In this document: positions 3,232 through 64,000 of the stretch, piece by piece | Layout: each line of letters starts with the position of its first letter | How positions within the stretch are numbered: position 1 is the stretch's first letter | Source of the DNA: Glandiceps talaboti | Taxonomy: Eukaryota; Hemichordata; Enteropneusta; Spengelidae | Assembly: GCF_964340395.1 (NCBI RefSeq) | Contig: NC_135550.1 | Location: forward strand, 8,253,864 to 8,317,863 | Length of the DNA stretch: 64,000 bases | Direction of reading: 5' to 3' | Notes under the pieces: model-generated | Seen by the model: only the letters and a program-made list of their open reading frames with translations | The model's database searches: none | Told to the model about the DNA's origin: nothing | Translations under genes and position numbers: made by a program

Positions 3232-12898
<9,667 letters not shown>

Positions 12899-25200: not shown

Positions 25201-25955
25201 TAGCATTGATTTCACGCAAATGAGTGTGATGTAAAGGTATGCTTTAGAATTGGAGTGATCTGATTTGTAAAAGCGTTTAGTTCTTAAATGAAAGAGCAGT
25301 CATCTGTACTATTCTCACAATTTGTTTGAATGATGTGTAAATAAATAAATAAAGTGACTTAGCAACAACTAAACTGATTTCTCGTATCTTTGAAGAAATT
25401 ATTTTCTGTTTGAAAAATATGTCAAAGTTTTTATCTGTGTTATATGTGTTCATAAATTTACATTCCATTAAACCAACATTGTAGAAAATTGCCATTAACT
25501 TCCCCGATTTTTCTCTTCTGTAACTGCTGCTGGTATAAATATGTTTATACCAATATTTGTCTTCATTTAGTAATTTTGCTGTCTTTGAAATTACAAATTG
25601 TGTTAATAAACTTATCAAAACTGTACATGTTTTTTGTGTAAATTTTATCATATTGCATATTGTTCTGCCTGTATGACTGATTACTATTATACCAATGTGC
25701 AGTGATTTTGCTATCTTTGAAATACAAATTGTGATTCCGCAAACTTCAAAATGTTATTGTTTTTTATCCATATTCAGTCAGTTCCTGTTAAAAACTACAA
25801 ACAAATAGAACGATTGATGGATGATGGTACCATGAACAGAACAACAGCATCTACCAACATGAATGCTACAAGTAGTAGATCTCATATGGTTATTACAATC
25901 AAATTTAAACAGGTAAGACTTGGGGTATTTGATTCCCCCTCCCCTTCCCATTTAT

Positions 25956-26003
<48 letters not shown>

Positions 26004-29000
26004 ATATATATATATATATATATATGCATCTTTATCTATCTGTTTCTTTGTTTTGTTTATTTATTCTTTCATTTGCTTATTTATTTATTTATTTATTTAT
26101 CTATTTAAATATTCAACAACACAACAATCAGCTACGGAAGCTGTCTTATGGTTGCCAAGTTGAATAAAATGAAAAGTAAAAAATTAGTTAAGAAAAATAA
26201 GAACAAAACAAATTACAGCACAACACAACAGTGTTCAAAATATGGAAATGAAAAACACAAACATTTTCTACAGCTATAAAAACCATTGGTCCATGGGTGG
26301 TGTTGCTATATCATGTAAAAAAGTTTGATAAACACATCAAATACATTTTAAAAATGTTTTTTAAACTCCCAAGGAGACTTAACATGTATATTACTGTAAA
26401 CCTGGAACTTATAGCTACCCTAGGACTTTATTTTTGCTTATTTCGCTGGACAACAAAAACACACTGAAAAATGAGTAGTCACTAAAATGCCTTCTTGTAC
26501 ATGAACACAATGTACCAGTTTGGTACTTAGTGAAAATTTATAGGTCTTTGAAAACTAGTTGAAGACTTAAGAAAAACGCAAAATATTCTTAAGGTGAAAG
26601 GTTTTTACAGTAGTCTGTCAACTACTGAGCAGTGTTACTGGTTGAATCTATCATACCAATACTATAACATGAATTATTCTCTATCCATAGAGTATTTTGA
26701 CAGAGCCATCATTTCACGTCAGCTATTAATATATTGTATATTACATGACTATCCTGACAATTATAGAAAAGCTAAGATTATTTCCAAATTGGTAAATATA
26801 TTGTACCATGTACTACCTAGTCTAGTCCCAGTATTTGGTATCATTACGATTTACACCACTGGTTTAGTTATACAGACCATGTTGGCATCCAGACTGTGTG
26901 CTACCACAAGAAAGGTGAACATAATACTCATAATAGTAGCTAAAACTTATTACTTCCCAAATGGACTTTGTGTATTGTTATTGATTGTTGGTCTGTAACT
27001 AACTTCGATATGTGTTGAGTAGACAGCTGGGTTGTTATTTACTGTGAATAGCTAAGAGGATTAAATGAGGCAATGTGACATATATTATAGCCAGGCTATA
27101 ACATGTCAATACAGTCAACCTATCTTTTAGCGTTACGCAAACTCTTCAGGCATTTTTTCTTCATTTATTTGAGCAAATTATTTTTTTGAAACCCACACAA
27201 TGTGACATATATTATAGCCAGGCTATAACATGTCAATACAGTCAACCTATCTTTTAGCGTTACGCAAACTCTTCAGGCATATTTTCTTCATTTATTTGAG
27301 TAAATTACTTTTTTTGAAACCCACACAACTGTATTTGTTTGTGTGAAATGATAATTGTAACCTGACTGAGTGATTACAAAACAGTCAGATGAATGCCTAA
27401 ATCTGTAATGCTATCTGCGGCATTCAACCTCAAGACTCTTTGTCAGGTGAAGAGATAATTTGATAGTATCAATAATACCATGGTGTACATGTAGATCTAG
27501 ACTAGGTAGTCCTGTAAGGTATCAGGTCAGATTTAAACCTCCACTCACAGAGACCACATACAGACTAAGACTAGGTGAACACGTGTAGCCTTGGCAGTCC
27601 TAGTAACTCAGCCTAGTTCCTATACGATATCGTTACAATTTACACCTCCACCCACTGGTTTAGTTAGAGACCACGTTGGCATCCAAACCATAGTATTAAA
27701 CTGGGAACATTTTTTTTTAAAGTTAAGTAAGAATGCATTTCCTTTTTATAATAATACAAAACTAAAAATGAATAACAAACTCAAAACATATGAAGACTAT
27801 AAAAACCTCCCAAGGGTCTGGTGCCAGTTACTCTAGTTCCTATACGGTATGGTTACAATTTGCACCTCCACACACGTTTAGTTAGCGATCACGTTGGCAT
27901 CCAGACTTGGTGCCAGTCTACCTCTCCTCCTAATATCATGACTATCAACTGTGTTGTCACAAAGATCAGAAGTGATTAGTACTCTATTAATGATCAACGT
28001 AAAGTGTGTTTGTCACAATTACTTTATTGTGTAATCAACAATGACTCCATTTATTAACAGATACTAAAGAAGTTTTAAGAAGTTAATCAAAAATATATCA
28101 AGTGTCTGCCACAGGCACTTGAATTAATCGGTATAATAATGATCTATTTTGTAATAATGAAATTCCCATGTGACAATGTCAACAATAGTACTGATTCATT
28201 CTATTTCCTGTGCCAGCAGTCTACACTATAGTCACTTGATGTACTCTATACATTTGAGAGAGAAAAGGGTGTGAAATCACTTGAATTACAGAAACATATA
28301 AAATGTAAAAAAAAACAATAGGATTCAACAATTGTCTAACCCTGCCATACAACTACTGTAAAAACTCTCCAGTAACACCATTAATAGGAAAAGTACAACA
28401 CTTTTGACAAGTCAGTAATATTAGAGGTCAGAGGTTAATATGTACACATTGTCATGCACTCAGTGACTAGGCAGTTTACATTCAATAAGTCATAATATGT
28501 TCAGATTTACCACAAGTGTTACAAAACTGAACATTTTCAACTTTTTAAATAAAATAGATAAAACTTTCAATTTAACACAGCTAGATGATAGATTAATGAG
28601 ACAGGAATTTAATACCATGTCATGTTTCAGCTAAGAATTCATTGTAATCCTTATTCGGCAATTTACTATAGAAAAGTTTTGTCATTTCCTTTTTTTGTGT
28701 CAAAGATATGAATCTTGGCAATGAAATGTCAAATCGGGGATTATTACATTGACAGTACACTAACCTAGAATCTAAGCATTTTGACTTCAATGCTTTCAAG
28801 AAGGAAAGTATTGGATATATTTAGATTCTAGGGTAACTACACACATACATCTACAGTCAGTTGTCAGACTACACTGATATATAATGCAGTCTGATATCAG
28901 TTGATCAGTGAATCCATAGAACTTTTTTTTTATAAAACATACTTTATTATCCCTCACGGGGAAACTTATTGACTTGCAACAACACAGAAGAAATACATAA

Positions 29001-32000
29001 ACACTGTAAAATATGAAAAACAACATTAAACTAAAGTACGAAGATGTTGAAAACTCAGTAGAAGAGTAGATAAAAATATAAACACACACTTCCTTTATTT
29101 CTTACATTCTCTGAATAAGTATTATGGTCGAAGTTCGAGTTCTTTTTAAAAATTACCATTAAAAACTAAAATTTCATGTTTGAAAAGTAACATATTTGCT
29201 GATAATAATGGTATACTCAGCAAAAAGAATGTTAATTCGGGTATTTTTTGGTGTTACACAGGTTTTCATCAATGATGTTGGAGAAAGCACCACTAAAAGC
29301 AGTGAAATAAATTTAGTTGATTTGGCAGGAAGTGAAAGGGCTGATTCAACAGGTGCTACGGGAGATAGATTGAAAGAAGGTTCGGCCATCAATCAAAGTT
29401 TGTCATCATTGGGAAATGTTATCAGGTATGTATATACGAACAGAAAAATAGCGATGAAAGTCTTATGGCAAATTCACACTTAAAATAAACTTTAAGGGAA
29501 GAGTCTGCCATTTATCGGAATTATTTTTGGGCAAATGTTATCAGGTTTTAACAATAACACAAAATTGTTGACTTTTTGTTGCAAATTTAGATTTTTGATT
29601 CAAATTGTTTAAGGAAAATTTTGAATCTGGCTAAAATTTATATGAAAATTAGTTCACTGTAAATTGCTAAAATGTTGATCAATGTGTTCATAATTGTGAT
29701 TTTGAATTTGAGTTCTGTTATCTGAAATAGAATCTTACCACCTCGGCATTAGCAAACATTTCATTTCACAAATAATGACTTCCTCTATATGTGCTATGTA
29801 TATTAATATTTAAATTCTGAGTTCAAAACTACTACAAGATAATGACTCCAGAGCAACAAAATAATCTTTTTGGGTGTTATTTAATAATCTGATTACTTTA
29901 ACATCAAAATTACAACATTTTTACAGACATGAAAATTACTGCTATAATTCTGGTCCAATTCTCAGCATTTTAGTTCATGTCACAGGATGAATATAGAACA
30001 AGAAGGTTGATTTATTCTCACACTTTCACACTTGTCTAGATGGTAACCCATTGGGTTTGAATCTAAAGATCTCTAGGTTATGTAAAAGAGATCTTCAAAT
30101 TCAAACCCAACGGATATAGCCTATAAACTATTCTCACACTTGCCTATATATTTACCTAGTATATTTCAGATGAATCCCTCCACCTCCTTCAGCTGAAATA
30201 TACTAGGTACATTATTTACGGTCAGAGTTTGGCGCTACTGCTAGAAGATTGACACTAATTCTATAATATACTTTTACCTCCCCAATTTCCGTGGGTGTCT
30301 AATATCAAGAGAATCAACAGGTGTCTGCTATACTAACAATGGTATCGTAATATTAGTACTAACACAACTTTAGATTTCAGTGAATGGCCTTGAATAGAAC
30401 AATTACGCAACCTTTAAAATGCAATTAAAATGTGAAACTGTAATATATTTAACATTTAAATTAACATTTAGATTACTTTCACTAGTGTTTAATCTTAATA
30501 ATAGCATATTGTTTCTTTCACACAGATTACCAATAAAATCAGTCTCCTGATAAAAAATCGTACTTTGAATAGATTTCTATTCTTACCAAAACTATGATTG
30601 TTGTATATATCAAATACTTAACAATAGCTTGTTTAGTATTAATATTTTTAAAATATATTATTCTTTTATTTCTTGGGATATATTTTCCGAATAATTTTTT
30701 ACAATTTCAATTCCAAATATATTACAACAATATGTATATATCAATTCAAGCAGTGTTTTTATTGTTTTTGTACAAATTCAGTCCTTATTTTGCCAGCTTT
30801 ATACGACCGTTTGAAAAAATACACGTCATTTTTTGCATAAATAGTATTCCAGTCTGCATTGTTATTGTGTTCATCTATCTAACTTATAATTTGCTTCATT
30901 TACTTCTTTTACACTTCATCAAACTCACACGGAAGTGTTGTGACTGATGAGTACCTTATCTTAGGGGTTGAAGTAATTTCAAAGAAGTTAAAGTAAAATA
31001 AAATAAAAATCCAGCCTACCTACACTATTTTCTGAAGTCCGACATGGTATTAGCAACAAAACTTGTTATTTTAGTCATCATCATTATTTTTGTCTTATGT
31101 AGTGCATTGGCAGATCTAGCTATGGGGAAGAAGAAAGTAATGGTGCCATACAGAGATTCCGTCTTGACTAAACTCCTACAAGGTGCCCTGGGTGGTAACA
31201 GTAAGACTATTATGGTATGTACAATGTACTGATACATGTATTAAACCGATCATCATTCATTGGTCGTGAAAGCAAAACTGATGAAAAAAAGAGTATGGTT
31301 ACAAAAAATTGAGAATGATCAATATTGGCTAACAGAATGTTCATGGGCCAGAAGCAAAAAAAAAAATTTAAAATTAAAATTAAAAGTTGACATTTTGAGA
31401 ATAATCCTTCTATTATGAGAGCTAAAGTCCTTACACTTTTTATGTCAATGTAGGATGGAGTGTAATTAGAACATCCCAGTAAGCAACAACAAAAATATTG
31501 ACTTTTTATTTCAAATTTAGATTCTTGATTCAAATTGTATTCATTTATAATACAGACAAAGTGAAATTGTGAGGACACGGTGTTCTATCTTTTCATCACA
31601 GTCACATAAGCAAGGCTATTTCAAAATTCTGCTGAAAAAAAAAACACTCCCCAATTTTACATTTTTTTCATTTCCCAGATTGCTGCCCTGAGTCCAGCTG
31701 ATATTAACTATGACGAGACGTTATCCACACTGAGGTATGCAGACAGAGCTAAGAAGATTCAAAATAAAGCTGTCATCAATGAAAGCCCTACAGATCGACT
31801 CATTCGGGAATTGAAAGAAGAGAATGCCAAATTAATGGCCATGTTATCAAAACAAGGAATTGGGAAACAAGCCGGCTTTGGAGGTAAGAGGATTTCACCC
31901 GATGTATTTTGGTTACAAGCCAATTGTATTGTAATGATAATCAGGATTTAAGAAGGTGGATAATTGTGTCTAGAGACCACCCCTCCCCCTCCCCCCCCCC

Positions 32001-51890: not shown

Positions 51891-52261
51891 AACACCTGAT
51901 CTATTTTGGGTTTTTATTACTTGTTTTTTATTTTGTTGTTAAATATGCAACATTTCAAAAACCTCGGCTAACAAATTATAAAGTGTGAGTTTTGAAATAG
52001 AGAACTAAAACTTTAACATTATGACATTTGCTAAGAAAATAAAAACCCACAATTCAAATACTAAAATTGCCGAGAGAGGGTCGGAGTTCCATCATGACTG
52101 CGGACAGAAAATAATGTGACCGGCCTTTATCTGTTAGATACAAACTCCACGGTAAAATTTGTTGTGGTATTATAAATTGGTGACTCTGTGACCATAGTCC
52201 CTCACAAAATAGAGCTTGTCCCCCGCAAAGATAATACTGGTCCTATCATGTGACCGCAACC

Positions 52262-52473
52262 TTTATCCAATCAGCATTGCGCCGTTCGTCTGTTTATACG
52301 TCCCTGGTTGCGGAGTCCAGGATGGAACGTGTACATGACAACAACGAAATGTAAACACGGTGGTATTACTACGGCAGTTATCTTTGCTGAAAACGCAGTT
52401 CGATAAACACTGCCTCGTTTATACTCCTGTTATTACGTTTATAGCTGAAGTCTATAGTCTATCGTATGCAGCT
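52262..52473 (+). promoter_or_regulatory. Probable promoter and leader of the small gene
   Basis: CCAATCAGC at 52267-52275 is a good NF-Y (CCAAT-box) site, followed by a comparatively GC-rich stretch. The leader would hold two short upstream frames, starting at 52322 and 52335, before the proposed ATG at 52474. The transcription start is not determined. Confidence 0.4.
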
Positions 52474-54088
52474 ATGGTCAATATGAATAGTGAAAAGTTT
52501 GCCATTAACTTGAACAAAATACGTCTTCTTTTATCAAGGTACAAGGTAAGTATTTGTATTTACCAAATAATTTTCTTTCTCTTTTCTTTCCTTGGTGACC
52601 AGGAATGTAGAAGGCTCTCAATATTGTAAGTCAAATCATCGTAAACTTGGTGACTATCCTTTTCCTTATTATTCAGTTTATTAAAATGTAAACAGTCATA
52701 GTCAAAATAGTTTATATCCAAAGTAGTTACAATATCTTGGTTTTTTGGATAACGTAATTGATTCGTCAAATATAGTAGTTTCTTCAGATTTTTCACGTGT
52801 GTTCTTTACATTTCTTCATATATGAAAGATCATATATTCAAAAGTAGAAGTTATCCACTGTCAAGTCTCACACTCTCTTCAATACTCAATCAACACCAGG
52901 TCCTGTTGAAATGTTTTGTGTAGGGGGCCTAATCTCGTAACAGCACATCGTAAGATGTCAAAACCACAATTTCACAAACTCAGATCATAACTGAAATATC
53001 CAAACACAAATGCGTTTAATTTGCCCGAATACAGAATCCTAGTGAACACACACTCATCGTCTTTCTTCTCGCGATGCGACGCGAAGGCACGCGTACGTTG
53101 GGATGGTGCCTGGTAATACGTTGCCATGACTCTTTGTTTACCATAATGCATGCCGGGTAGTTCTTTCATCAGCCACAGACAAGTTGTCTGTGCATCAGCG
53201 TACTAACGTTAAAGATTGCTGACAAAGTTTTCTGTATCTCTTACGATATTCACGTGTAATTTGATTTGATTTAAAGGGTATCTTATTGAATGAAACTTAA
53301 TGTATGTTTTGAGGGCTACATGATGAACCAGTGAAATATAGTTTTCATGGCATAGGTAATAATTTCACCTTAACTTACTTGATTCAACACAATGGTGACA
53401 GTATTTGTAAACTTATTTTATCTATCAGTATTGTTCATTTCAGTGATATTCATACATCAACACCTGTCACCAGAAGACTTAGCTCTGACATTCACGTTGA
53501 CTTGTTTGATGACAACGAGGTTGTCTTTACACCAACAAATGGGTGCTTTAAAATCAGAAGACGACAAACCCGACATCACAAGTGAGTATAGACAAGAATA
53601 GTCACTTTAAAGACAAGGAATCGAAATGTATTACAAGGAACGAGTGAAAAAGACTGGTGTTTCGCGTACTAATTTTAATAGTAAAACCACACTACCTATC
53701 GTATTTTCAGTGATCTTCGATTTCTTTGTCGGACATATATTGTTTATAGACCAGTGCTATTTGTTATATATTTACTTTGGTTATCCGAAATGTCGGGAAG
53801 GGATGGATGATGTGCACACGCTTTATGTTTTTAAAACCCCTCGATTATTTTTGTCACTGAATTATGTACAACATTATATTAAAAGATTGGAAACAAATTA
53901 TAACAGTTCCTTCTCCAAATGAAACTTTTCACTCATAAATCGTTTTTTATTTTTTTTTATTTTCTTTACCTTTATTCATAATAACTCTACTTTATCTTTT
54001 TTTTCCTTGTAGGGGTTTGTTCAGGAGAGTTGTTAATAGAACCAGAAGTGCAGTCAACTCTGCCAAGGCTCATTTTAACATTAATTAA
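52474..54088 (+). CDS. Unknown small basic protein (102 aa), four-exon model with a 23-nt microexon
   Basis: I do not recognise this gene. Proposed coding exons: 52474-52545, 52603-52625 (23 nt), 53444-53581, 54013-54088. All boundaries are GT-AG: donors GTAAGT, GTAAGT, GTGAGT and acceptors CAG, CAG, TAG. Without the microexon the phases do not join, because exon 1 to exon 3 would read TGA at once; with it the frame runs to TAA. The first intron is only 57 bp, has no in-frame stop and is a multiple of three, so its retention would add 19 residues. The protein starts MVNMNSEKFAINL and has a central acidic patch VDLFDDNEVV. Next come TPV and FTPT, possible proline-directed phosphosites, and then a strongly basic stretch (IRRRQTRHHK) before a helical C-terminus. 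No signal peptide, transmembrane segment or known domain is seen. An alternative donor (GTACAA after 52538) would also join exon 1 to exon 3 in frame. The model rests on splice signals only. Confidence 0.5.
53142..53163 (-). promoter_or_regulatory. ZNF143/Staf-like site
   Basis: Read on the minus strand, TACCCGGCATGCATTATG agrees with the Staf/ZNF143 consensus, as I recall it, at all but one position. It lies in a locally CpG-rich stretch (about 53060-53160), inside the second intron of the proposed small gene. It could mark an alternative or antisense promoter. Confidence 0.3.
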
Positions 54089-55349
54089 AAGAACTTCAGT
54101 AATATTTCACTTTAATCTAAGAAGAATATTCATTATGTTTTCTTTATTTTACTATTTTTGATAAAAGAGATGAGATATTATTTGTAAGAAAAACTTATAT
54201 ACAACGTATTTTCTAAAATGACTTGTTGTCTTGTCTGATTTTTTGGGATGGTATACTTACTCTCCTTCGTTTCTTTAAAATGTTTTTGAGTCTACATCGC
54301 CCAATCTAATTTCTTTAATGAAGGAAGAAAATTACTGATTTTGCCTGAGAAGCATTTCTGGTGTTTATTAAATGCAGGTTTCAATCGAATTCACACCTGA
54401 AGAAGAGTTACTATTCATTGCCGTCCGTTTATTGATGAAACTGTAGGCTGTGTTTTAGAGAATCACCAAAGTTTACCTTGCAGAGAGATGTGGGCCTAAA
54501 CATACACACGAGATGTAAGCGATAATGCATCAGAATACATTATGTGAATTCCACATAGAAATTACTAGAGAATAATCCTCGTGATTTGCAACTACAAATG
54601 AATGGCTATATTCCATATACGATCGACCAATTGCAAACCATGTGTTGCGATGCTTCCGGGATATTGGGGGGGGGGGGGGCGCTTGGTGAACGACAACCTT
54701 GCTTATGCACGCAAAAGTGTATCCATCGATGTACATAGAACCAGTAATTTATACATGGCATGATACATAGGTGTACTTTGACACGAGTACTACTTTATGG
54801 TTCATACAACTGGTACATTCTGGTTGGGTCTGTAATAGTGCTATTTTTAGAATAACTATACACCTACGTAATTAGCATTTTGGTACCATGTGCAAATTCC
54901 AAGAAATTGATGGCTGATTTGCGTAGACATGTATGTACATGTCTCAAACCTTTTGTATGGGTGTAACCCCGCTGTGTATTTCCTCCTTCGACACAGCCAA
55001 ATATTGCCCATTGCATTGGCCTCTGCTATTTGCGGTGCGCCTTGGAAGGTGCCGCAAAAGAGGCTGTGATTTACGACAGTTCAACTAAACGAAAGATAAA
55101 CTCCATTGTCTATGACCATTAGGCAATCAAACATGCAAATCATTGTTAGTAGATATTAGGTCATTTAAGGACATGGATGGAATGGCACGTCCATTTAAGG
55201 ACATCTACTGTGCTACTTAACTTGTTCTCAATAAACACTAAACGGGATAGGCACGAATTTTACCCAGGTATTACAAAGTGATTTACTGGCGTTAGGTATA
55301 TCTTTTGAGATAGCTAGGGATTCCGAGATCTTCTGTGGACAAAATCACC
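54089..55349. other. Region between the small gene and the TRIM gene
   Basis: AT-rich, with a run of about 14 G at 54666-54679. It contains the presumed 3'UTR of the small gene (an ATTAAA lies near 54366) and the leader of the TRIM gene. No other gene is supported. Confidence 0.6.
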
Positions 55350-56090
55350 ATGGCGGCTGGAGGTGTACCTGTAGAGACGGCAATTCTTGATAAAATCGGC
55401 GAAAATTTCCTATGCTGTACCATTTGTTTTGAACGATTTATAACTCCTAAGATTTTACCGTGTCTGCACAACTTCTGCGAGAAATGTCTCGTGTCAATAG
55501 TGAAAAGGAAAGGTTCTCTCCTGTGCCCGACATGTTCCACTCCTTGTCGCCTGACCGATCTTGGCGTTGCAGGGTTGACAACGAATTTTTTCATGAACAA
55601 TCTGATCGAAATATTCGAGGAACGAAAGGCGATGTCAGGAAATGAGTCCGTTCAGTGCGACATTTGCACAGAAAACACAGCAACTCGGCGATGTGTAGAT
55701 TGTCCACAATTCTACTGTGATAAATGTATCGAAGCACACCGAAAACTTCCAGCTCTTCGTTCGCATCGCATTCTGACCATTGAAGAGTTTCAACTGGGAC
55801 GTGAGTCCGCCACGCCCACCCCGATCCAACCTGTTGAACGTTGCAGTGTTCACCATGACAACCAGATCAAATTCTACTGTGACACTTGTCAGGTAGCAGT
55901 GTGTAGTGACTGTACAATAGTTGATCATCGAGTACCTGATCATAAACATCGCTATATAAAACAAGTAGCAGACGAGTATAAAACTGAGCTAACTCAGCTG
56001 ATTGCAGAGCTGAAGGAGAAAGAACGAGATGTTGACAGACAGAAAGTTACAGCCGTACAGAGATGTACAGAATTGAGAAAGCAACTCAAG
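55350..56090 (+). CDS. TRIM-family protein, first coding exon (RING, two B-boxes, coiled-coil start); 3' partial
   Basis: A probable RING E3 ubiquitin ligase of the tripartite-motif class. The start is the ATG at 55350 in a strong CACCATGG context. The exon codes 247 residues and ends in phase 0 at a GTATGT donor (56091). The RING finger uses C23, C26, C38, H40, C43, C46, C59 and C62 (C3HC4). B-box 1 lies at about 103-139 and B-box 2 at about 165-200. A charged helical segment rich in Glu and Lys (about 201-247) begins the coiled coil. The C-terminal domain (NHL, filamin, B30.2 or other) lies beyond the window, so the subfamily cannot be fixed. The arrangement recalls TRIM2/3/56/71-like invertebrate proteins. 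This exon is intact, with no frameshift. Confidence 0.88.
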
Positions 56091-56212
56091 GTATGTAACA
56101 TATTGTAGATAAAATCTATTGTGAATTAATATGGTAGAACAAATCACTTACCTGCATATATGAGCATATGTGTAATATTAAATTGTAGTGTTTGTTTTTG
56201 TTTTGAGTTTTG

Positions 56213-57781: not shown

Positions 57782-60700
57782 GGGATTTGTTCCAAGGAGT
57801 ATTTTTGAGGGGTGTCTATGACGGGATTTATACCAATGAATATTTTTGAGGGTGTCTATGCCAGGATTTATTCCAAGGAATATTTTTGAGGGGTGTCTAT
57901 GATGGGATTTATTCTGAGGAGTATTTTTGAGGGGTGTCTATGCCAGGATTTATTCCAAGGAATATTTTTGAGGGGTGTCTATGACGGGATTTATACCAAT
58001 GAATATTTTTGAGGGTGTCTATGCCAGGATTTATTGCAAGGAGTATTTTTGAAGGGTGTCTATGCCAGGATTTATTCCAAGGTGTATTTTTGAGGGGTGT
58101 CTATGATGGGATTTATTGCAAGGAGTATTTTTGAGGGGTGTCTATGCCAGGATTTATTCCAAGGAGTATTTTTGAGGGGTGTCTATGACAGGATTTATTG
58201 CAAGGAGTATTTTTGAGGGGTGCCTATGACAGGATTTATTGCAAGGAGTATTTGTGAGGGGTATCTATGACAGGATTTATTCCAAGGAGTATTTTTGAGG
58301 GGTATCTATGCCAGAATTTATTCCAAGGAGTATTTTTGAGGGGTGCCTATGACAGGATTTATTCCAAGGAGTATTTTTGAGGGGTGTCTATGGCAGGATT
58401 TATTGCAAGGAGTATTTTTGAGGGGTGTCTATGGCAGGATTTATTGCAAGGAGTATTTTTGAGGGGTGTCTATGCCAGGATTTATTGCAAGGAGTATTTT
58501 TGAGGGGTGTCTATGCCAGGATTTATTCCAAGGTGTATTTTTGAGGGGTGTCTATGATGGGATTTATTGCAAGGAGTATTTTTGAGGGGTGTCTATGCCA
58601 GGATTTATTCCAAGGAATATTTTTGAGGGATGTCTATGCCAGGATTTATTGCAAGGAGTATTTTTGAGGGGTGTCTATGATGGGATTTATTGCAAGGAGT
58701 ATTTTTGAGGGGTGTCTATGCCAGGATTTATTCTGAGGAGTATTTTTGAGGGGTGTCTATGCCAGGATTTATTCCAAGGAATATTGTTGAGGGGTGTCTA
58801 TGATGGGATTTATTCCAAGGAGTATTTTTGAGGGGTGTCTATGGCAGGATTTATTGCAAGGAGTATTTTTGAGGGGTGTCTATGATGGGATTTATTGCAA
58901 GGAGTATTTTTGAGGGGTGTCTATGCCAGGATTTATTCTGAGGAGTATTTTTGAGGGTGTCTATGCCAGGATTTATTCCAAGGAATATTGTTGAGGGGTG
59001 TCTATGATGGGATTTATTCCAAGGAGTATTTTTGAGGGGTGTCTATGGCAGGATTTATTGCAAGGAGTATTTTTGAGGGGTGTCTATGACAGGGTTTATT
59101 CCAAGGAGTATTTTTGAGGGGTATCTATGCCAGAATTTATTCCAAGGAGTATTTTTGAGGGGTGTCTATGCCAGGATTTATTCCAAGGAGTATTTTTGAG
59201 GGGTGTCTATGCCAGGATTTATTCCAAGGTGTATTTTTGAGGGGTGTCTATGATGGGATTTATTGCAAGGAGTATTTTTGAGGGGTGTCTATGCCAGGAT
59301 TTATTCCAAGGAATATTTTTGAGGGATGTCTATGCCAGGATTTATTGCAAGGAGTATTTTTGAGGGGTGTCTATGATGGGATTTATTCCAAGGAATATTT
59401 TTGAGGGGTGTCTATGCCAGGATTTATTCTGAGGAGTATTTTTGAGGGGTGTCTATGATGGGATTTATTGCAAGGAATATTGTTGAGGGGTGTCTATGAT
59501 GGGATTTATTCTGAGGAGTATTTTTGAGGGGTGTCTATGGCAGGATTTATTGCAAGGAGTATTTTTGAGGGGTGTCTATGATGGGATTTATTGCAAGGAG
59601 TATTTTTGAGGGGTGTCTATGCCAGGATTTATTCTGAGGAGTATTTTTGAGGGTGTCTATGCCAGGATTTATTCCAAGGAATATTGTTGAGGGGTGTCTA
59701 TGATGGGATTTATTCCAAGGAGTATTTTTGAGGGGTGTCTATGGCAGGATTTATTGCAAGGAGTATTTTTGAGGGGTGTCTATGACAGGGTTTATTCCAA
59801 GGAGTATTTTTGAGGGGTATCTATGCCAGAATTTATTCCAAGGAGTATTTTTGAGGGGTGTCTATGCCAGGATTTATTCCAAGGAGTATTTTTGAGGGGT
59901 GTCTATACCAGGATTTATTGCAAGGAGTATTTTTGAGGGGTGTCTATGACAGGATTTATTCCTGGGAGTATTTTTGAGGGGTGTCTATGCCAGGATTTAT
60001 TCCAAGGAGTATTTTTGAGGGGTGTCTATGCCAGGATTTATTCCAAGGAGTATTTTTGAGGGGTGTCTATGCCAGGATTTATTCCAAGGAGTATTTTTGA
60101 GGGGTGTCTATGACGGGATTTATTCCTGGGAGTATTTTTGAGGGGTGTCTATGACAGGATTTATTGCAAGGAGTATTTTTGAGGGGTGTCTATGACAGGA
60201 TTTATTGCAAGGAGTATTTTTGAGGGGTGTCTATGACAGGATTTATTGCAAGGAGTATTTTTGAGGGGTGTCTATGACAGGATTTATTGCAAGGAGTATT
60301 TTTGAGGGGTGTCTATGCCAGGATTTATTGCAAGGAGTATTTTTGAGGGGTGTCTATGCCAGGAGTTATTCCAAGGAGTATTTTTGAGGGGTATCTATGA
60401 TGGGATTTATTCCAAGGAATATTTTTGAGGGGTGTCTATGATGGGATTTATTCCAAGGAGTATTTTTGAGGGGTGTCTATGCCAGGATTTATTCCAAGGA
60501 GTATTTTTTGAGGGGTGTCTATGCCAGGATTTATTCCAAGGAGTATTTTTGAGGGGTGTCTATGCCAGGATTTATTGCAAGGAGTATTTTTGAGGGGTGT
60601 CTATGCCAGGATTTATTCCAAGGAGTATTTTTGAGGGGTGTCTATGACAGGATTTATTCCAAGGAATATTTTTGAGGGGTATCTATGCCAGGATTTATTC

Positions 60701-63700
60701 CAAGGAGTATTTTTGAGGGGTATCTATGATGGGATTTATTCCAAGGAATATTTTTGAGGGATGTCTATGACGAGATTTATCCCAAGGAGAGTTTTGAGGG
60801 ATGTCTATGACGGGATTTATTCCAAGGAGTATTTTTGAGGGGTGTCTATGATGGGATTTATTCCAAGGAGTATTTTTGAGGGGTGTCTATGACAGGATTT
60901 ATTGCAAGGAGTATTTTTGAGGGGTGTCTATGATGGGATTTATTCCAAGGAGTATTTTTGAGGGGTGTCTATGACAGGATTTATTCCAAGGAATATTTTT
61001 GAGGGGTGTCTATGCCAGGATTTATTGCAAGGAGTATTTTTGAGGGGTGTCTATGACAGGATTTATTCTGAGGAGTATTTTTGAGGGGTGTCTATGATAG
61101 GATTTATTCCAAGGAATATTTTTGAGGGGTGTCTATGATGGGATTTATTCTGAGGAGTATTTTTGAGGGGTGTCTATGATAGGATTTATTCCAAGGAATA
61201 TTTTTGAGGGGTGTCTATGATGGGATTTATTCCAAGGAATATTTTTGAGGGGTGTCTATGATGGGATTTATTCCAAGGAGTATTTTTGAGGGATGTCTAT
61301 GACAGGATTTATTCCAAGGAGTATTTTTGAGGGGTGTCTATGGCAGGATTTATTGCAAGGAGTATTTTTGAGGGGTGTCTATGGCAGGATTTATTGCAAG
61401 GAGTATTTTTGAGGGGTGTCTATGGCAGGATTTATTGCAAGGAGTATTTTTGAGGGGTGTCTATGGCAGGATTTATTGCAAGGAGTATTTTTGAGGGGTG
61501 TCTATGCCAGGATTTATTACAAGGAGTATTTTTGAGGGGTGTCTATGCCAGGATTTATTCCAAGGTGTATTTTTGAGGGGTGTCTATGATGGGATTTATT
61601 GCAAGGAGTATTTTTGAGGGGTGTCTATGCCAGGATTTATTCCAAGGAATATTTTTGAGGGATGTCTATGCCAGGATTTATTGCAAGGAGTATTTTTGAG
61701 GGGTGTCTATGCCAGGATTTATTCCAAGGAATATTGTTGAGGGGTGTCTATGATGGGATTTATTCCAAGGAGTATTTTTGAGGGGTGTCTATGGCAGGAT
61801 TTATTGCAAGGAGTATTTTTGAGGGGTGTCTATGATGGGATTTATTGCAAGGAGTATTTTTGAGGGGTGTCTATGCCAGGATTTATTCTGAGGAGTATTT
61901 TTGAGGGTGTCTATGCCAGGATTTATTCCAAGGAATATTGTTGAGGGGTGTCTATGATGGGATTTATTCCAAGGAGTATTTTTGAGGGGTGTCTATGACA
62001 GGATTTATTGCAAGGAGTATTTTTGAGGGGTGTCTATGACAGGGTTTATTCCAAGGAGTATTTTTGAGGGGTATCTATGCCAGAATTTATTCCAAGGAGT
62101 ATTTTTGAGGGGTGTCTATGCCAGGATTTATTCCAAGGAGTATTTTTGAGGGGTGTCTATACCAGGATTTATTGCAAGGAGTATTTTTGAGGGGTGTCTA
62201 TGACAGGATTTATTCCTGGGAGTATTTTTGAGGGGTGTCTATGCCAGGATTTATTCCAAGGAGTATTTTTGAGGGGTGTCTATGCCAGGATTTATTCCAA
62301 GGAGTATTTTTGAGGGGTGTCTATGACAGGATTTATTCCTGGGAGTATTTTTGAGGGGTGTCTATGCCAGGATTTATTCCAAGGAGTATTTTTGAGGGGT
62401 GTCTATGCCAGGATTTATTCCAAGGAGTATTTTTGAGGGGTGTCTATGCCAGGATTTATTCCAAGGAGTATTTTTGAGGGGTGTCTATGACGGGATTTAT
62501 TCCTGGGAGTATTTTTGAGGGGTGTCTATGACAGGATTTATTGCAAGGAGTATTTTTGAGGGGTGTCTATGACAGGATTTATTGCAAGGAGTATTTTTGA
62601 GGGGTGTCTATGACATGATTTATTGCAAGGAGTATTTTTGAGGGGTGTCTATGACAGGATTTATTGCAAGGAGTATTTTTGAGGGGTGTCTATGCCAGGA
62701 TTTATTGCAAGGAGTATTTTTGAGGGGTGTCTATGCCAGGATTTATTCCAAGGAGTATTTTTGAGGGGTATCTATGATGGGATTTATTCCAAGGAATATT
62801 TTTGAGGGGTGTCTATGATGGGATTTATTCCAAGGAGTATTTTTGAGGGGTGTCTATGACAGGATTTATTCCAAGGAGTATTTTTGAGGGGTGTCTATGC
62901 CAGGATTTATTCCAAGGAGTATTTTTTGAGGGGTGTCTATGATGGGATTTATTCCAAGGAGTATTTTTGAGGGGTGTCTATGACAGGATTTATTCCAAGG
63001 AGTATTTTTGAGGGGTGTCTATGCCAGGATTTATTCCAAGGAGTATTTTTGAGGGGTATCTATGATGGGATTTATTCCAAGGAGTATTTTTGAGGGGTGT
63101 CTATGACAGGATTTATTCCAAGGAGTATTTTTGAGGGGTGTCTATGCCAGGATTTATTCCAAGGAGTATTTTTTGAGGGGTGTCTATGCCAGGATTTATT
63201 CCAAGGAGTATTTTTGAGGGGTGTCTATGCCAGGATTTATTCCAAGGAGTATTTTTGAGGGGTGTCTATGCCAGGATTTATTCCAAGGAGTATTTTTGAG
63301 GGGTGTCTATGACAGGATTTATTCCAAGGAATATTTTTGAGGGGTATCTATGCCAGGATTTATTCCAAGGAGTATTTTTGAGGGGTATCTATGATGGGAT
63401 TTATTCCAAGGAATATTTTTGAGGGATGTCTATGACGAGATTTATCCCAAGGAGAGTTTTGAGGGATGTCTATGACGGGATTTATTCCAAGGAGTATTTT
63501 TGAGGGGTGTCTATGATGGGATTTATTCCAAGGAGTATTTTTGAGGGGTGTCTATGACAGGATTTATTGCAAGGAGTATTTTTGAGGGGTGTCTATGATG
63601 GGATTTATTCTGAGGAGTATTTTTGAGGGGTGTCTATGCCAGGATTTATTCCAAGGAATATTTTTGAGGGGTGTCTATGACGGGATTTATACCAATGAAT

Positions 63701-64000
63701 ATTTTTGAGGGTGTCTATGCCAGGATTTATTGCAAGGAGTATTTTTGAAGGGTGTCTATGCCAGGATTTATTCCAAGGTGTATTTTTGAGGGGTGTCTAT
63801 GATGGGATTTATTGCAAGGAGTATTTTTGAGGGGTGTCTATGCCAGGATTTATTCCAAGGAGTATTTTTGAGGGGTGTCTATGACAGGATTTATTGCAAG
63901 GAGTATTTTTGAGGGGTGCCTATGACAGGATTTATTGCAAGGAGTATTTTTGAGGGGTATCTATGCCAGAATTTATTCCAAGGAGTATTTTTGAGGGGTG
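57782..64000 (+). repeat. 41-bp minisatellite, about 150 copies, continuing past the window
   Basis: The unit is about 41 bp and contains GTATTTTTGAGGGGTGTCTA followed by TG, a variable triplet (CCA, ACA, ATG, ACG, GCA), then GGATTTATT and CCAAGGA or a variant (GCAAGGA, CTGAGGA, CCTGGGA). A few units lack one G (40 bp) or gain a T (42 bp). Marker variants recur at long fixed offsets: 60771 and 63436 (2665 bp, exactly 65 units), 59641 and 61895 (2254 bp, 55 units minus 1 bp), and 57984 and 63680 (5696 bp, about 139 units). The array therefore grew by large block duplications. It lies in the TRIM intron, is not open in any frame for long and has no gene. Confidence 0.97.

Follow-up and report, generated by a model that had tools for sequence, protein, structure and literature searches.

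The four-exon locus at positions 52474-54088 of the window, the 64,000-nucleotide stretch of the Glandiceps talaboti genome that we analyzed (C2:8253864-8317863), is likely a junction at which truncated copies of two gene families abut, such that its 102-amino-acid reading frame would be incidental and would encode no maintained protein. Comparison with copies elsewhere in the genome showed that positions 52193-52645 are homologous to the 5' end of one putative family, here called family B, and that positions 52757-54359 correspond to a gene of another, family A, that has lost the first five of its seven exons (x1 to x5). The truncated copies are probably no longer protein coding. An earlier note had presented the locus as a single small gene with a frame-restoring 23-nt microexon.

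Results

The gene model proposed in the earlier note is present in the window as described. Four exons on the forward strand, separated by three GT-AG introns, join to give 309 nt, that is, 102 codons plus TAA and a product of 102 amino acids. Exon 1 (52474-52545; 72 nt, 24 codons) ends at a phase-0 donor, GTAAGT, and is followed by a first intron of 57 nt (52546-52602) that is stop-free and a multiple of three. The candidate microexon (52603-52625; 23 nt) shifts the phase from 0 to 2, after which exon 3 (53444-53581; 138 nt) and exon 4 (54013-54088; 76 nt) complete the frame. As had been claimed, a stop is encountered immediately 3' of exon 1 when the microexon is omitted, and retention of the first intron leaves an open frame of 121 amino acids. 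The splice sites of the microexon had been called good; with a generic splice matrix, the sites of the whole model were rated ordinary to good, at 1.5 to 7.8 bits, with 7.8 for the exon 1 donor, 4.0 and 1.5 for the acceptor and donor of the microexon, 2.5 and 5.1 for those of exon 3, and 7.0 for the exon 4 acceptor.

Exons 3 and 4 come from an undescribed family, here family A. When the 102-amino-acid product was used to query the 590-Mb assembly (47 contigs), exon 3 was found at 11 further places with 57-89% amino acid identity (seven on C1 at 29.0-30.9 Mb, two on C17, and one each on C24 and C22), and exon 4 was also present in all 11, with order and strand unchanged. All of these copies show AG/GT borders at exon 3 and an AG at exon 4; in the C22 copy (L019), a small deletion alters the exon 3 donor, and part of the interior of exon 4 is lost. 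Five additional upstream exons are common to family-A copies, and the full gene has seven exons, x1 to x7, the last two of which are exons 3 and 4 of the window. In L015, exons of 25, 77, 69, 134, 201, 138, and 73 nt encode 238 amino acids that start MMTEIQSKDIIRVAAEIADIV and end KAHFKH. In six loci (L009, L012, L013, L015, L017, and L018), the exons have AG/GT borders and join into an open frame of 238-242 amino acids, and L014 is open throughout, with one x4 border misplaced by the alignment. Exons x1 and x2 of L011 were located further upstream, in L020. Exons x1 to x3 of L016 lie in L021, yet L016 carries an in-frame stop in x4. Stops and lost borders mark L010, and x1 to x5 were looked for at L019 and not found. 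The 238-amino-acid product gave at least 64 exon-level matches in the genome, and weak lone pieces were among the matches listed, for example at C17:20220460 (E = 0.003) and C2:17221273 (E = 0.07).

The basic tail of exon 4 is conserved among relatives, and exons 3 and 4, as the earlier note had supposed, are real coding exons; the family to which they belong has neither a Pfam match above the cutoff nor a significant PDB match. Neither the 102-amino-acid window protein nor the 238-amino-acid product scored above the Pfam cutoff, the sole match being that of DUF7265 to the window protein (13.5 bits against a cutoff of 24.6). PDB matches to the two products had E-values of 0.34 or worse and were rejected as not significant, and an NCBIfam search of family A gave no match above the curated score. 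As a separate observation, the 3' splice site of x6 and the first bases of the exon are tandemly repeated, with a period of about 42 bp, 5' of the true site in some loci, forming an array of decoy acceptors. There are nine extra acceptor copies in L011 (3190-3564), seven in L010, six in L017, and one in L014; in L010, L014, and L017, all three of which read in reverse, the repeats are just 5' of x6.

The family-A copy in the window lacks its coding front. A 5' flank and leader region (52757-53262, forward strand) is collinear with relatives, at 66-76% identity, to just before the start exon x1. There, 4 nt (53263-53266) stand where relatives have 63 nt containing x1 and its ATG, and the breakpoints fall at window 53262/53267 versus L015 2214/2278 and L012 1879/1943. 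About 80 nt of family-A intron 1 is retained after this junction. At a second junction (53318-53351), 1.7-1.8 kb that holds x2 to x5 in relatives is absent, and the junction segment aligns both to L015 intron 1 (end at 2355) and to the stretch preceding x6 (from 4063). Family-A homology resumes 5' of x6 and extends through the 3' flank (54089-54359, compared with L015) to position 54359. Both x6 and x7 retain the family-A borders and phases, and exon 4 is one base short near its end, so that the frame finishes FNIN (KAHFNIN) where relatives finish FKH (KAHFKH). When x2 to x7 were sought on both strands of positions 51939-55118 (L001), x6 and x7 only were found, and x1 had no match in the same interval. 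Within the family-A 5' region, conserved blocks at window 53104-53165 and L015 2082-2140 read GGTGCCTGGTAA, CGTTGCCATGAC, TTTGTTTACC, and ATGCATGCCGGGTAGTT; these may resemble RFX, forkhead, and ZNF143 sites.

Exon 1 is also real, in that it corresponds to the first exon of a second gene family, family B, with its donor conserved. The homology covers a 5' module (52193-52645, forward strand) that takes in promoter-like DNA, the first coding exon, the short intron, and the microexon stretch. This module has counterparts at 13 other genomic sites (on C1, C2, C6, C9, and C23) with 62-72% identity, two of them partial (L030 and L036), and one further match lies at 31.34 Mb of C1. Homologous frames of exon 1 are found elsewhere, for example, MANINSEAFVVNMNKVSLLLSRYA in L027. 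In a cluster at 28.0 Mb of C1, the module heads a putative three-exon gene in which the first exon is followed by exons B3 and B4. These exons join in phase 0 to give an open frame of 223-245 amino acids in four cluster units, the four whose B4 was found in the loci examined, and in one of them (L034) the start is GTG, not ATG. Matches to family B lie at C1 27.99-28.04 Mb (the cluster, L031 to L034, with L031 and L032b counted as one unit) and at C1 31.34 Mb (L038), with a diverged relative on C15 (L037) and a piece at C2 7.74 Mb. When B3 and B4 were sought in the window, neither was convincingly matched; the best E-values were 0.023 and 0.81, on the opposite strand or far off. Family B gave no Pfam match and no significant PDB match, and the Pfam and PDB comparisons of both families, together with the NCBIfam search of family A, yielded no function for either.

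Comparison with family-A exons and with the family-B cluster places the microexon outside the family-A frame and indicates that it breaks the family-B frame in most units tested. No matching exon was found among the family-A exons. In the cluster units, exon 1 reads directly into B3. The stretch that matches the microexon is 28 nt in four of the five units and 24 nt in the other (L033a), and, with it included, those four reach a stop after residue 31 and the frame of L033a stays open. The stretch is 23 nt in L028, where B3 was sought and not found, and 29 nt in L029, where B3 is cut short; both lengths would fit the phase of the window. Splice-like sites at the microexon stretch also occur in several family-B copies.

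The idea of a single ancestral gene was not borne out. Relatives of x6 and x7 have five other upstream exons and match neither exon 1 nor the microexon well (best E-values at family-A loci outside the window, 0.089 and 1.2, respectively), and relatives of exon 1 run into different exons, with the microexon stretch breaking the frame as described above. We also considered, and rejected, exon 1 plus the microexon as a diverged piece of x1 to x5: the DNA score was equalled by 156 of 1,000 shuffles and the protein score, against L015, by 39 of 2,000. Against a family-A consensus the score was reached by 1 of 2,000 shuffles, for a consensus that was typed post hoc and an alignment that spans a family-A exon border. 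That families A and B are one family was likewise rejected (BLASTP E = 0.42).

Exons 1, 3, and 4 are not chance sequence, since they have homologues elsewhere in the genome. With exon 1 accounted for by family B, the microexon is the sole remaining thing to explain. By the generic splice matrix, the proposed model is the top solution combining an ATG exon with a short exon within 1.5 kb 5' of exon 3. Among control stretches of 1.5 kb, taken from the window and the fetched loci and in some cases containing real exons, its score was equalled in 2 of 177 with a middle exon of at most 60 nt, in 3 with one of at most 150 nt, and in 4 with one of at most 250 nt; 2 of 73 did so in a smaller control set. 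In 13 of the 177, two exons could be joined directly with a donor score of at least 5. With exon 1 fixed, 12 of 290 control introns contained a frame-restoring exon of at most 30 nt that was just as good, and the count was 21 for at most 60 nt and 33 for at most 150 nt. By these counts of stretches and introns, the model is unusual but not extraordinary, and it was selected post hoc. We conclude that a frame-restoring microexon is mildly unusual by chance, which leaves a chimeric gene alive as a reading.

Constraint on the family-A exons of the window was assessed on a tree of 12 copies that has poor inner support and places the window with a bootstrap of 28. The window branch measured 0.062 at codon positions 1 and 2 and 0.078 at position 3; for flanks and intron its length was 0.205, giving a ratio of positions 1 and 2 to noncoding sequence of 0.30. 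Nine other copies, treated as intact although they include L016 with its x4 stop, summed to 0.053 at positions 1 and 2 versus 0.968 in noncoding sequence (ratio, 0.055), and the degenerate L019 gave 0.162 versus 0.306 (ratio, 0.53), such that the window is intermediate. Because the exon branch of the window (0.067) is far shorter than its noncoding branch (0.205), the family-A exons were constrained over most of that branch. With inputs rounded by hand, the approximately 8 changes at positions 1 and 2 exceed the 1.5 expected under the constraint of the other copies (Poisson, 1.7e-4) and fall below the 27 expected without constraint (Poisson, 1.8e-5). The simplest reading is that x6 and x7 of the window would have been under long constraint as part of a full gene, with recent loss after. 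We read the exon constraint on the window branch as predating the truncation of family A, although a truncated working gene would look alike.

Nine codons in the family-A exons are unique to the window copy, and seven of these are replacements and two are silent. In the close pair L012 and L013, replacements made up 4 of 9 and 4 of 10 unique codons. The figures were 2 of 3 for L015, 3 of 3 each for L017 and L010, 1 of 3 for L016, 0 of 1 for L014, and 17 of 20 for L019; L009, L011, and L018 had no unique codons. Purifying selection on the present frame may be relaxed at x6 and x7, as judged from few codons. On the family-B side, exon 1 was less identical to its relatives than the upstream DNA was in 9 of 12 comparisons (L030 being too short to include), and the 57-nt first intron was conserved as well as or better than exon 1 in several copies.

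Other features of the window were recorded. An open frame with RING and B-box domains (55314-56108), whose closest PDB sequences are TRIM2/TRIM3, is directly downstream of the locus. Exons of a kinesin gene occupy 25721-31951, and among PDB sequences its frame at 31610-31948 is closest to KIF1A. A proteasomal ATPase exon (Prot_ATP_ID_OB_C) lies at 7962-8309, and the frame at 12087-12503, which has no Pfam match, is presumably part of the same gene (PSMC1). The window starts with a 155-bp tandem repeat in six copies (30-956), and its end is filled by about 152 tandem copies of a 41-bp unit (57783-64000) with a GC skew of about 0.5. A bacterial promoter scan gave nothing useful for the locus.

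Discussion

Recombination or duplication would have placed the 5' end of a family-B gene beside a family-A gene, two deletions would have taken out the coding front of family A, and the remnant would have drifted thereafter. The 102-amino-acid frame would then be open because a family-B first exon, a splice-like 23-nt stretch of family-B leader, and the phase-2 exon x6 fit by accident. Any product would most likely be RNA from a B-type or A-type promoter, without a maintained protein. Some observations run counter to decay, however. Both x6 and x7 remain entirely open and their splice sites are intact, exon 1 retains its ATG, frame, and donor, few controls (2 of 177) reach the splice score of the model, and the position of the window in the tree is weak (bootstrap, 28). 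Moreover, replacement-rich unique codons are also seen in intact-looking copies (L017, 3 of 3; L015, 2 of 3), in small numbers.

The locus might instead be a young chimeric gene, in which a family-B promoter and exon 1 are joined through the 23-nt exon to x6 and x7, and a 102-amino-acid protein with the basic tail of family A is made under family-B control. The phases fit exactly and the frame is open, the model is the best-scoring solution in its region and was equalled in only those two controls, and the splice sites of x6 and x7 are intact. Moreover, the upstream DNA, the exon 1 donor, and the microexon-like splice sites are common to several family-B copies, and the 23-nt and 29-nt versions of the stretch in L028 and L029 would fit the phase of the window. 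We nonetheless consider such a gene unlikely, as seven of the nine window-only codons are replacements, in 9 of the 12 comparisons exon 1 is conserved less than the DNA upstream of it, the microexon stretch stops the frame in four of the five family-B cluster units, and the 5' region of family A would fall within intron 2. That a chimera is still forming, with the family-B promoter and exon 1 having captured x6 and x7 and the leader stretch having become a frame-bridging coding microexon, seems to us decidedly unlikely. Transcription might also begin in the family-A 5' region (52757-53262) and yield a noncoding RNA that is spliced to x6 and x7 and lacks the family-A start codon. As far as the lost start exon, that region is retained with 66-76% identity, and the splice sites of x6 and x7 are intact, but an Rfam search of the window gave no match at the gathering score, and we regard this account as quite improbable. 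Finally, the families lie in repeated clusters that are difficult to assemble, and a complete family-A copy could have been misjoined such that x1 to x5 are missing in the assembly only. The two gaps have separate breakpoints, however, and the flanks and intron of the window differ from those of the copies compared, which makes an assembly error very improbable.

The abutting remnants that we favor are like nonprocessed (duplicated) pseudogenes, in that parental introns and flanks are kept, the coding front is gone, and constraint appears relaxed. Unlike in such pseudogenes, the remnant in the window is still an open reading frame, because the first exon of a second family sits upstream. Chimeric genes that arise from partial gene duplication are treated in two papers (PMC3449122, PMC8824575). 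As in such genes, the locus sets the 5' portion of one gene next to the 3' portion of a second, and the splice phases are compatible, but its expression and selection are putative, and the bridging exon disrupts the frame in most family-B cluster copies. Microexons are 3 to 27 nt long. The 23-nt length and splice-like borders of the candidate agree with that class; however, 23 is not a multiple of three, and homologues do not support inclusion.

Two multicopy families of short proteins, A and B, for which no Pfam or PDB match was found, were brought out by the comparison. Why the locus resembles a gene may be simply that two decaying gene copies together can mimic a convincing new one. Ultimately, the locus would offer a precise case in which to test whether the frame of a recently fused gene can be bridged by a microexon.
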